Source: Gammaproteobacteria bacterium (GTDB lineage Bacteria; Pseudomonadota; Gammaproteobacteria; Enterobacterales; Aeromonadaceae). Taken from it: DNA of 34,738 nucleotides. A program made the position numbers and the translations under genes. Every line of letters starts with the position of its first letter. The first letter of the stretch is position 1. The stretch covers positions 1 to 34,738 of the forward strand of contig JAAEZO010000013.1 in NCBI GenBank assembly GCA_018222825.1. Direction: 5' to 3'. This document shows positions 197 through 4,641 of the stretch, one piece after another. The notes beneath the pieces are model-generated. The model did no database searches. It worked only from the letters and a program-made list of their open reading frames with translations, and was not told the DNA's origin.

Positions 197-997
197 ACTG
201 TCTGTCGTTCAGCAAACTCGTCTTTTCCCATGTTGTAAAACCACCTTTCGTGACCAAATCGTGACCATTTGGCGTCCCTTCACTATTTTGACCGTTATTC
301 AAAACAGCTCGTGTGGCTGCCCCGGAGAAAATCGGGAAGCACTATATTCGGTGAGCTACACTAGGTAATGATTTTCCTGCCTTTATGGCCAGTTATGGTC
401 AGTTTTTGTATATCAGCCGAATAAGTTGCTTAAAATATACCCGAGAAGGCTAATAAATGAGCGGGAACATCGAAGTTGTGTCACAGTCTACGAATTTCAT
501 CATAGCTATACGCTTTATCTATACACAGATCCTAAGGTTGTGCAGAGGTCGGTTGTATCCGTTGGGCTAGGGTACTTTCGGCCAGTTTCATATCGTGCTG
601 CTTTCCCCTGTGGCCGTCATCGTCCAAGAGATCCCTTTTGCATTAGTCAATAGACTTCACTTTACATCGTCTTTGCCTCGGTTTGAGGACTGGGCTCTAT
701 TTTCCCCCCAGAGGCACCTTGATTTGAGCATCATCCAAGGATTGCTAATCCCAATCGATCATACTTTATTCGTCTTTTATATCAGAATTCCTCGAATACC
801 CCGGTTTCATTTCACTCACCGGAAGCGGTGATAAGCAGAGGTACTATGAAATATCACTGAGGTATTTAAGACAGGCCATTGAACCCCCGTACGTAGAATC
901 AACAAAATAGCATTTATTGCATTGCGATCAGACCCCTTTGGGTTATGAAAGCCCAAATAGTCGGTTTACTTGGAGGCTAATGTAATTGTAATCGGGT

Positions 998-1025
998 TTG
1001 TATTAAGGTTTCGTATGGGTATAAT
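998..1025 (+). promoter_or_regulatory. Putative sigma70 promoter of the CHASE2 cassette
   Basis: TTGTAT (998-1003) - 16 bp - TATAAT (1020-1025). Confidence 0.55.
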
Positions 1026-1035
1026 TTGGTAATTG

Positions 1036-1050
1036 CGTCAATATTTGACG
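1036..1050. promoter_or_regulatory. Putative operator palindrome
   Basis: CGTCAA-TAT-TTGACG perfect inverted repeat just downstream of the -10 hexamer; TTGCGTC also occurs as a direct repeat at 1033-1039 and 1052-1058. Confidence 0.4.
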
Positions 1051-1085
1051 TTTGCGTCGTGGGTAAATATACAAGGGAACAAGTA

Positions 1086-2543
1086 TTGGCAAGGGAACTG
1101 CTTAAACTACCCAACTGGATTCGGCGTCTGTTTCATGCTTTTTTGCTGACATTATTGATGTGGGCAGTCTTGGTTGTTTCGCCTTTCGGCTTTGGCGAGC
1201 ACCTGGATAAGTATGTCCAGGATCTTATCAATACCCAAGCGGGGCACTGGATTTATCCTGATACCCGGCAGGATGAAGTGGTGGTATTGCTTCTGACGGA
1301 TGAGATAGTCGATGCCGTTCTGCGGGGACAATGGCCCGCGCCTTACTCTTTTCATGCTTCAATTCTGGATGATCTGCTTGTTCATCAACCACGCGCCCTG
1401 TTTATCGACTTTTATTGGATGAACCAGCTCAAGCCCGGCGCTAAAGAGCTGGTTGATGTGCTGAAAAACTACCGGGCAGCCGGGATTGAAGTATACCTTT
1501 CGGCACCGTCACTGGGATGGTTGAAGAATTTTTGGCCGGAGCTGGTCGGATTGGTAACTCCGGTATTACCTCAAATCGTTATGGATCCCATGGACTTCGT
1601 TGCGCGGGCCTATACACAGGGTAATAACGAGCTGCCATCGGCGGCTTTCGCGATCGTCAACGACTTGAATCATGAGCTCGAGAACACAGAATCTCGTGGA
1701 GATATGAATATCTTCTGGGGCACGAAAAATAATATTCGTAATCAGGCCTGGATGACACCAGATACAGCACAGGATTATAATTTTCTCGACAGCCTGTTGC
1801 GTGGTTTCACACAAGTCGAGACGCCAGTACCTTATTCAACAACCGTTTTTGTCCGGGATCTTATCAACCCGGTCGGCCGTACCGAAGATGAAGCCCTTGC
1901 CGAGCTGGATGATCACCTAAAAGACAGGGTCGTTGTTTACGGTGCCAGCCTGACCGGTATTCAGGATGTGGTATTTACTCCGACCCGGGAGATTCTTCCG
2001 GGCGCCTATTATCACGCCATGGCGCTGGACAATCTGCTGACCTGGGGGGAGCAGTTCAAGGCGGCTACTCCACGCTGGCCTGACGGTATGGAAGGGTTGT
2101 CGCTGCCATGGGTGCAGTTTTTTTTGCTGCTGCCTATTGCCTGTTTTGTGTGTTTTCGTAAAACAAACAACGAAGATTCCCTGCGTGAAGATAACGATTA
2201 CCTCCGTTATTCGACTTTCTTCGGACGGCTGTGTGGCTTTGCAGTCAGCCGGATCCGCCTCTCTTACCCGGCCCTTCGTTTTTGGCTGGCTATCTTATTC
2301 TATGTCGCCTTAGTGTGTTGGGTTCAGTTCAGCTTACTTGATTTATCGGTAGCAACCTGGGCGGGTTTCATCGAAATTTTTGGCGCGGGTATCGTCCTCG
2401 AGCGTCTTAGCCTAGTCGAACGCATCACCTCATTTCCAAAACGTCTATACCGATTCTATCAACCACCGGAAGGAGTACGCAGTGCAGAGAATAACAATAT
2501 TTCTGATGCTTTCACTGACAATACTGGCCGCACAGGCAAGTGA
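1086..2543 (+). CDS. CHASE2 domain membrane sensor protein without recognisable output domain (ORF track start 1026; TTG at 1086 preferred)
   Basis: N-terminal TM, periplasmic region with CHASE2-like signature (…DDHLKDRVVVYGASLTGIQDVVFTPTREILPGAYYHAMALDNLLTWG), then three C-terminal TM segments; no GGDEF, kinase or cyclase domain. SD-like AAGGGAA precedes TTG 1086. Confidence 0.8.
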   Translation: MARELLKLPNWIRRLFHAFLLTLLMWAVLVVSPFGFGEHLDKYVQDLINTQAGHWIYPDTRQDEVVVLLLTDEIVDAVLRGQWPAPYSFHASILDDLLVHQPRALFIDFYWMNQLKPGAKELVDVLKNYRAAGIEVYLSAPSLGWLKNFWPELVGLVTPVLPQIVMDPMDFVARAYTQGNNELPSAAFAIVNDLNHELENTESRGDMNIFWGTKNNIRNQAWMTPDTAQDYNFLDSLLRGFTQVETPVPYSTTVFVRDLINPVGRTEDEALAELDDHLKDRVVVYGASLTGIQDVVFTPTREILPGAYYHAMALDNLLTWGEQFKAATPRWPDGMEGLSLPWVQFFLLLPIACFVCFRKTNNEDSLREDNDYLRYSTFFGRLCGFAVSRIRLSYPALRFWLAILFYVALVCWVQFSLLDLSVATWAGFIEIFGAGIVLERLSLVERITSFPKRLYRFYQPPEGVRSAENNNISDAFTDNTGRTGK

Positions 2544-2832
2544 TGTCATCAAGGTTACGGAATTCAGGAGGGCACAAATAAATCTGTTTGACCCTGTCAG
2601 CCTTGAGCGAGTGAAGAAGGTGGATGCCGGGACGCTTGCATTACCGTTGAATATACTCGAAGTAAAACCGAGTGGGCACTACGTTGTGGAGATTGAAAAT
2701 GAGCGCTATTCAATAAAAAAAAGAATGGTTCGTACAGATAGAACCTATGAATTGAACAGTTCCTGTAAAAATGTGCTGGCTGCCAATCTTGATGCTGCGA
2801 CACGTGGACTCGGCAATGGAGAATGCAAATGA
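2482..2832 (+). CDS. Small secreted protein, possibly SH3-like fold
   Basis: GTG start with strong SD (GGAAGGAG); signal peptide MQRITIFLMLSLTILAAQAS; overlaps the CHASE2 gene by 62 bp and the M48 gene by ATGA. Confidence 0.75.
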   Translation: MQRITIFLMLSLTILAAQASDVIKVTEFRRAQINLFDPVSLERVKKVDAGTLALPLNILEVKPSGHYVVEIENERYSIKKRMVRTDRTYELNSSCKNVLAANLDAATRGLGNGECK

Positions 2833-4352
2833 GACTGTTAACTTCAGCTCTTGTTGTCATTACCATGTTGCTGTCGGGATGTAGCTCTAGCGTACTGCCT
2901 AGTCGCCTGAATGCGGATAAAACGCTACTGTCTCAAACCGGCGAGCAGTATTCCAGCGGTCTGCTCGGCATAGGGGAGGAGCAGGATCGCTATCGTAATC
3001 AAAGTCTCGGGTTGGGACTGATCAGTCACCCTGCCGCAGAGACCTATATTAACGAGCAGTTGGAGAAACTGAAACAGGCCTCCGGTATTAGTGATCTTCC
3101 CGGCCGAGCCTATTTGTTCGCGGATACTGCTCTCGGTGCCAGAGCGAGTGCCGACGGCAACATTTATATTCCCTATGCCATGTTGAAGGATCTGGAAACC
3201 ACCGATGAGCTGGCAGCACTACTGGCTCACGAATTGGCTCACACCATACGTAACCATAACAGCAGCGATGTTTTCGTAAAATTCCAGAAAAAAGCGGTGG
3301 TGGCTGCGGCTCTGTTTGCCAATTTTAAAAGTAATGATACGGGAGTCATCCGCAGTGAAGATGAACGTCGAATAGAGAATGCATTTACGGCGTTGATGGT
3401 CTCGGATGGCTTTATTAATCCAGGATGGACGCGGAGGCAGGAAGAAGAAGCCGACAAGTTGGGACTGGATTTGATGATAGCAGCAGGTTACAACAGTGAG
3501 GCCATGTTTACCCTGCTGGACAAGTTGACTTCCTGGGAGGAAATGAACAAGCAGCGGCAGTCCAGTGATAACGAACTTGTTAAAAATGCCTTGGCATCCG
3601 TCAATTTGAATGCCGAAAGTATTCCCTTCGGCGAGACTGTGAGTGGAGTACTTGAAAAATCCGCCGGCAAGATGGATTCCTTGTTGAGTCGTTTCAACAA
3701 GGATCATGACTCGGCCGAGGATCGTTATAACATGCTGCTTGACTACGCCGACAAACACTACCCCGATGTTTCCAGTCCTGTTCAGGAGCGTCGTCACTGG
3801 CAAAAAATCAGTAAAAGTCGACAAACAGACAATATATGGCGTGGTTTGCAGCATATCGTTGATGCCAGAGAATCCATGGCCAGGGGAGAGCTGGCATCTG
3901 GCGAACTCAGTATTCGGGGCGCCGTCAATGTGCATACCCGGCACCAGAACTTTGTCAGACAATCCTACTATGAGCTACGTTCTGCTCAGGGTAAAACATC
4001 CAGCATGGAGCAAAACCTGCAACTTGGTTTGAAGGGGGAATATCCCTCCTTGATGATGCATGTTGAGAAGACTCGATTATTGACGGACAAGGGTGATAGC
4101 AACAATCAGCGGCAGGTTTTGTCACTACTCGACATATTTGATGGCTATGGTCGGCCGCCCAGTTATTACCATAAGGTTATTGCTCTGGCCGAAGGCGCAG
4201 GCCTGAGCGCCAAGGTGACGACACTCCTGGCCGACTGCTTTGCACGCTATGCAGGAGAAGGAATCAGCTGTACCGACGAAAGCAAGGAAAAAGAGGAAAA
4301 TACTGACCTTTCATACGGTAATTTCATAAGCGGGCTTTTTAACAAGGAATAA
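2829..4352 (+). CDS. M48 family metalloprotease, lipoprotein
   Basis: Lipobox (MLLSGCSS), HExxH motif in LAALLAHELAHTIRNH, downstream Glu ligand region RRQEEEADKLGLDLM; ATG overlaps previous stop. Confidence 0.9.
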   Translation: MRLLTSALVVITMLLSGCSSSVLPSRLNADKTLLSQTGEQYSSGLLGIGEEQDRYRNQSLGLGLISHPAAETYINEQLEKLKQASGISDLPGRAYLFADTALGARASADGNIYIPYAMLKDLETTDELAALLAHELAHTIRNHNSSDVFVKFQKKAVVAAALFANFKSNDTGVIRSEDERRIENAFTALMVSDGFINPGWTRRQEEEADKLGLDLMIAAGYNSEAMFTLLDKLTSWEEMNKQRQSSDNELVKNALASVNLNAESIPFGETVSGVLEKSAGKMDSLLSRFNKDHDSAEDRYNMLLDYADKHYPDVSSPVQERRHWQKISKSRQTDNIWRGLQHIVDARESMARGELASGELSIRGAVNVHTRHQNFVRQSYYELRSAQGKTSSMEQNLQLGLKGEYPSLMMHVEKTRLLTDKGDSNNQRQVLSLLDIFDGYGRPPSYYHKVIALAEGAGLSAKVTTLLADCFARYAGEGISCTDESKEKEENTDLSYGNFISGLFNKE

Positions 4353-4641
4353 CGTAAATTTGCCTTCCGGGTGACGTTAACTCACGGCTGCTGATAGTGC
4401 GACAGAGTTCAGGCCGAGAACAGATTTCCGTGGGCCAGGTCATTTGCCCGTACAGGTGCGGATAATTTGCTCTGGCCTTTGTCTCGAATGGCGTTGCCTG
4501 GGGATCGGTTATTTAATTTTCTTGCCGGTTGAATGGACGAAAGGTATGTCACTCCATTTAACCAGGCCGTTTCGGTGCTTAGCGGCTGCACAGCATCATT
4601 AAAATTCCGTACAATGCTCGCCTTATTACAAAGGGGGCGCT

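Follow-up and report, generated by a model that had tools for sequence, protein, structure and literature searches.

CHASE2 is usually the input domain of cytoplasmic enzymes. What, then, does a CHASE2 protein act on when it carries no enzyme of its own? The question is raised by one stretch of DNA from an Aeromonadaceae gammaproteobacterium (34,738 nucleotides, hereafter the window), where a gene for an output-less CHASE2 protein (gene 1) overlaps a gene for a small secreted SH3-fold protein (gene 2), itself overlapping a gene for an M48 metalloprotease lipoprotein (gene 3).

Layout of the locus

All three genes lie on the forward strand, with the overlaps given in the preliminary description. 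Position 998, where that description begins the cassette, is out of frame with gene 1. The open frame of gene 1 begins at a TTG at 1026 and ends at 2543. Its start is likely the TTG at 1086, which follows the sequence AAGGGAA (gene 1: 1086–2543; supported by comparison with locus L002); the GTG at 1059 is a possible start. In a near-identical Oceanisphaera copy of gene 1, a stop lies a few codons ahead of the match. Gene 2 (2482–2832) starts at a GTG preceded by AAGGAG, and its first 62 bp overlap gene 1. Gene 3 (2829–4352) is joined to gene 2 by an ATGA overlap at 2829–2832, and an alternative in-frame ATG is found at 2823. Promoter and terminator scans of the locus gave matches near the chance level.

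Gene 1 encodes a CHASE2 protein without an output domain

The gene 1 product matches the Pfam CHASE2 model (PF05226, E 4e-19, 69.5 bits versus a cut-off of 26.3). Hydropathy analysis predicts four transmembrane (TM) helices: one N-terminal helix, followed by the CHASE2 domain and three C-terminal helices, after which 47 residues remain. Searches of Pfam and NCBIfam detected no second domain and no kinase, cyclase, GGDEF or HD-GYP output. The trio relatives that were checked likewise lack a cytoplasmic output: their CHASE2 proteins keep only 11–63 residues after the last predicted TM helix, with no evident conserved domain. Thus, gene 1 is a CHASE2 gene without output, as first described. A cryptic output, which the preliminary description had named as evidence against its proposal, was rejected on the empty Pfam and NCBIfam searches and the short, unconserved C-terminal tail. 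A PDB sequence search with profiles of genes 1 and 2 returned nothing useful.

Gene 2 encodes a secreted protein with a predicted SH3 fold

Gene 2 encodes a protein of 116 residues that is predicted to be secreted, and signal-peptide-like N-termini are found across its family. None of the 15 family members matched any Pfam family, SH3 models included. The AlphaFold core (residues 21–88) is all-beta with pLDDT mostly above 90; the tail is not confidently modelled. In a Foldseek search of the PDB, the top matches of this core were largely bacterial SH3 domains (probability 0.97–1.00), with TM-scores up to 0.70 for the isolated domain (TMt 0.70 to 2kyb). The E-values ranged from 0.02 to 0.3, none being below 0.001, and these model-based matches are good for the fold class, not for the family. 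They agree with the earlier view of a small secreted SH3-like protein. Profile comparison by hhalign matched the gene 2 family to the SH3_3 proteins of a second gene triad described below (84%, E 7.5e-6). A C-terminal Cys pair (C95 and C115 in gene 2) is present in 14/15 family members, most of which carry an [ST]RGLG-like motif directly before the last Cys.

Gene 3 encodes a BepA-like protease with a histidine plug

Gene 3 encodes an M48 metalloprotease (PF01435, E 4e-18, 66.5 bits versus a cut-off of 20.3). The lipobox LSGC (2874–2885), the zinc motif HELAH (3228–3242) and the EEEAD segment with the third-ligand Glu, all noted previously, were confirmed; the HExxH motif and the third Glu are invariant in the alignment of relatives. 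The Ser at position +2 predicts sorting to the outer membrane. An LxGC lipobox is found in most relatives, the alphaproteobacterial ones having no clear lipobox. The best PDB match of the gene 3 product is BepA, both by sequence and by fold over the whole length (154 residues of the structure model fall below pLDDT 50). Its C-terminal region is TPR-like and carries a Cys pair that is nearly invariant in relatives.

An H-x5-R motif (H293 and R299, positions 3705–3725) aligns with the THPLPTSR sequence of BepA. In BepA, the plug histidine switches the protease off (PMC8423444; PMC7950410). The His is kept in 13/14 and the Arg in 14/14 of the aligned proteins, most of which lack the Pro that follows the His; the M48 protein of the trio at L047 has a Tyr at the plug His position. 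Since M48 proteases in general have such a plug (PMC7950410), the motif indicates that the gene 3 product can be held off and is no evidence of special control by CHASE2.

Is gene 3 simply a housekeeping protease? It scored 52 bits against the BepA equivalog model of NCBIfam (cut-off 570) and 37 bits against the LoiP model (cut-off 365), and the host genome contains three further M48 genes, by sequence apparently HtpX, BepA and LoiP. A housekeeping BepA or LoiP copy is ruled out by these apparent separate copies. A search of PHROGs gave only a generic M48 family of unassigned function, and the reading as a phage gene was also discarded.

The BepA-like protease and the missing output domain would both fit a second view of gene 1, in which its product chiefly anchors an envelope quality-control protease at the inner membrane, or presents substrates to it as a scaffold, and senses nothing. 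The trio CHASE2 domains have also diverged from canonical ones (70 Pfam bits versus 177 for L053 and 176 for L049). However, their core motifs (D...P...LPG.YYHAMALDN) are strongly conserved across divergent taxa, and we consider a pure scaffold improbable.

The three genes recur together

We wondered whether the trio recurs in other genomes. A first scan of genome contigs used gene 1 alone as the query and returned 8 loci. In all eight, gene 1 was followed first by a gene for a small secreted protein and then by an M48 gene; the hosts were Oceanisphaera, Pseudomonas saudimassiliensis, Marinobacterium, Photobacterium, Parvularcula, Caulobacter and two MAGs. Screening 398 genomes of the phylum with an HMM then gave 73 CHASE2 loci with 74 CHASE2 genes, several weaker matches being left out; the six strong-matching output-less genes outside the window were all part of trios. 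Four more loci, L154, L155, L157 and L158 (the small protein of L158 is too divergent for the HMM), came from 369 surveyed genomes of the class, as did L156, which is cut by a contig end and lies outside the assessable loci. A plasmid search produced a single record, from Caballeronia, and this too holds the complete trio; its annotations read CHASE2 protein, hypothetical protein and M48 metalloprotease. This betaproteobacterial trio (Caballeronia sp. M1242, L159) resides on a 0.9-Mb replicon.

Altogether, 20/20 assessable loci of this CHASE2 clade, window included, carry the same three genes in the same order, in Alpha-, Beta- and Gammaproteobacteria; gene 1 was the only one of the three used to find them. 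By contrast, none of the 63 other surveyed CHASE2 genes (those outside the trio and the second triad) has a same-strand M48 gene in the retrieved stretch. The trio was found in 7/398 genomes of the phylum and in 6/369 genomes of the class (including the cut locus), the window being counted in both. Absence of the trio from other genomes had been named beforehand as evidence for chance adjacency; HMM surveys and gene neighbourhoods revealed the opposite, and the recurrence far exceeds chance. No shared fourth gene is evident in the trio neighbourhoods listed. The trio had no significant match among the PADLOC defence models, and a role as an anti-phage defence system was set aside.

The trio is inherited as a unit

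In quick trees, the trio CHASE2 proteins form one clade (SH-aLRT 100), and the trio M48 proteins make up a group of their own (support 80) that excludes BepA, LoiP and the M48 proteins of the second triad. Pairwise distances are correlated between the CHASE2 and M48 proteins (0.97), the CHASE2 and SH3 proteins (0.91) and the SH3 and M48 proteins (0.92), values to which shared phylogeny contributes. All three genes are under purifying selection, with dN/dS ratios between the window and L002 of 0.11 (gene 1), 0.18 (gene 2) and 0.11 (gene 3).

In the genus of the window, the trio is present in 2/23 genomes. Comparison with congeners placed it within an extra segment of about 4.3 kb (257–4583), between a tRNA-Asp gene (78–154) and a PAP2-family gene. 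In three congeners (L162–L164) the site is empty, the tRNA-Asp and PAP2 flanks adjoining within about 19–130 bp, showing that the trio arrived as an insertion. The inserted segment holds the trio alone and has no integrase gene.

It could be argued that three unrelated envelope genes became neighbors by chance, since envelope genes tend to cluster in general; nothing more speaks for this. The 20/20 recurrence refutes it, and the single insertion unit, the gene overlaps and the correlated divergence also argue against it: its likelihood is negligible. From the recurrence, it is very probable that the three genes work together.

A second triad retains a cyclase

To what end do they work together? 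The other CHASE2 loci bear on this question. Five genes encoding CHASE2-class III cyclase proteins (L050, L051, L053, L059 and L063) are followed by a gene for a secreted SH3_3 protein and then by an M48 gene. The SH3 protein of these cyclase triads has a conserved TG[VI]RG[IL]S tail motif. At L053 (G747:C9:202641-207271), the CHASE2-cyclase gene has an M48 gene on either side. Common descent of the M48 proteins of both triads is unsupported, as they do not group in the quick tree; a deep common origin is possible.

FecR-domain genes occur in 38/73 survey loci, not beside the trio or the cyclases with SH3b and M48 partners. The CHASE2 genes that they accompany encode a kinase, cyclase or HD-GYP output, these classes being taken from motif searches that left many of the 63 genes without one. 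At L043, the FecR gene goes with a second CHASE2 gene (HD-GYP), which only faces the trio of that locus from the opposite strand. It is as if FecR and the SH3/M48 pair were alternative CHASE2 partners. Operons of FecR, OmpA-like lipoprotein and CHASE2 genes were seen at L049:4324-6945 (output-less) and L043:3100-6279 (HD-GYP). The recurring partners, FecR, FecR with an OmpA-like protein, or SH3b with M48, suggest that CHASE2 may sense envelope proteins.

In the cyclase triad, a CHASE2 protein with its own output is encoded beside the same partners: the M48 protease need not be the output and, from this geometry, the SH3/M48 pair could equally serve in input or processing. In the trio, the protease and SH3 protein would then lie upstream: the protease would act on the SH3 protein or on a client in the envelope, and CHASE2 would sense the product or the freed SH3 protein and signal through its TM bundle to a putative partner. 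The frequent FecR genes are in line with this order of events, and so is the response of the S. meliloti CHASE2 cyclases, which runs through NsrA, a protein of the outer membrane (PMC13001267). However, the few residues that trio CHASE2 proteins keep after the last TM helix and the absence of an evident shared fourth gene speak against it. The CHASE2 TM bundle could have a small binding partner that escaped detection. We regard an input role of the protease as the less probable order, though a more serious contender than a pure scaffold.

A model for protease control within the envelope

We favor the converse, that the M48 protease is autoinhibited and comes under the control of the CHASE2 protein by way of the SH3 protein, because the trio CHASE2 proteins lack an output and the protease is the only catalytic member of the trio; on balance, this is somewhat more probable than its negation. 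The CHASE2 protein would lie in the inner membrane and expose its sensory domain to the periplasm, where the soluble SH3-fold protein would be its partner. The effector would be the M48 lipoprotein, which probably sits on the periplasmic side of the outer membrane and which, like BepA, would be blocked by a zinc-binding histidine plug of its own. On detecting a ligand or a state of the envelope, the CHASE2 domain would act via the SH3 protein, which would free or recruit the protease, and a periplasmic or outer-membrane client would be processed. The preliminary proposal of an envelope sensor-protease module is thus supported in part: composition, fold classes, the kept regulatory histidine and inheritance as a unit come from the data, whereas contact between the partners, their localisation, a signal running from CHASE2 to the protease, the client and the stimulus are what we infer.

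Comparison with known systems

The preliminary description knew of no system of this composition, and our search of the open-access literature (subscription papers were not covered) found no description of one. No open-access paper combined CHASE2 with M48, or CHASE2 with adenylate cyclase and SH3; CHASE2 with metalloprotease yielded one unrelated use only. As far as the open-access literature goes, the trio is a set of known families in an undescribed arrangement. It may tentatively be read, at somewhat less than even chances, as transmembrane control of a new class: an output-less CHASE2 protein would drive an envelope protease via an SH3 adaptor, a partner logic perhaps assembled twice, with and without a cyclase. 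In such a class, sensing and response both stay within the cell envelope. If true, CHASE2 can control envelope proteolysis without any cytoplasmic step, and M48 proteases gain a candidate for the regulation of their plug that is genetically linked to them.

The gene 3 product shares its M48 core, HExxH motif, third Glu and H-x5-R plug with BepA, YcaL and LoiP of E. coli outer-membrane quality control, its TPR-like C-terminal region with BepA and its lipoprotein signal with LoiP and YcaL. It differs from all three by its separate group in the M48 tree, a long insert before the His plug, the C-terminal Cys pair and an operon with CHASE2 and SH3 partners.

The gene 1 product resembles CHASE2 kinases and cyclases (S. 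meliloti CyaD1, CyaD2 and CyaK, Burkholderia BiofilmReg) in its N-terminal TM helix, periplasmic CHASE2 domain and three further TM helices. Such CHASE2 proteins often have the gene of an envelope partner next to their own, as the BiofilmReg kinase has FecR/LysM (PMC5192318). Unlike these signalling proteins, gene 1 has no output and is accompanied by an SH3-fold protein and an M48 protease in place of FecR.

Two further parallels come from our own survey. L049 also combines an output-less CHASE2 protein with envelope partners (FecR and OmpA-like neighbours), but its CHASE2 lies outside the trio clade and no M48 gene was found nearby. The cyclase triad has the same order of CHASE2 gene, small secreted SH3 protein gene and M48 gene, yet it keeps the cyclase, its CHASE2 proteins form a separate clade, its M48 proteins fall outside the trio group and its SH3 proteins end in a different tail.
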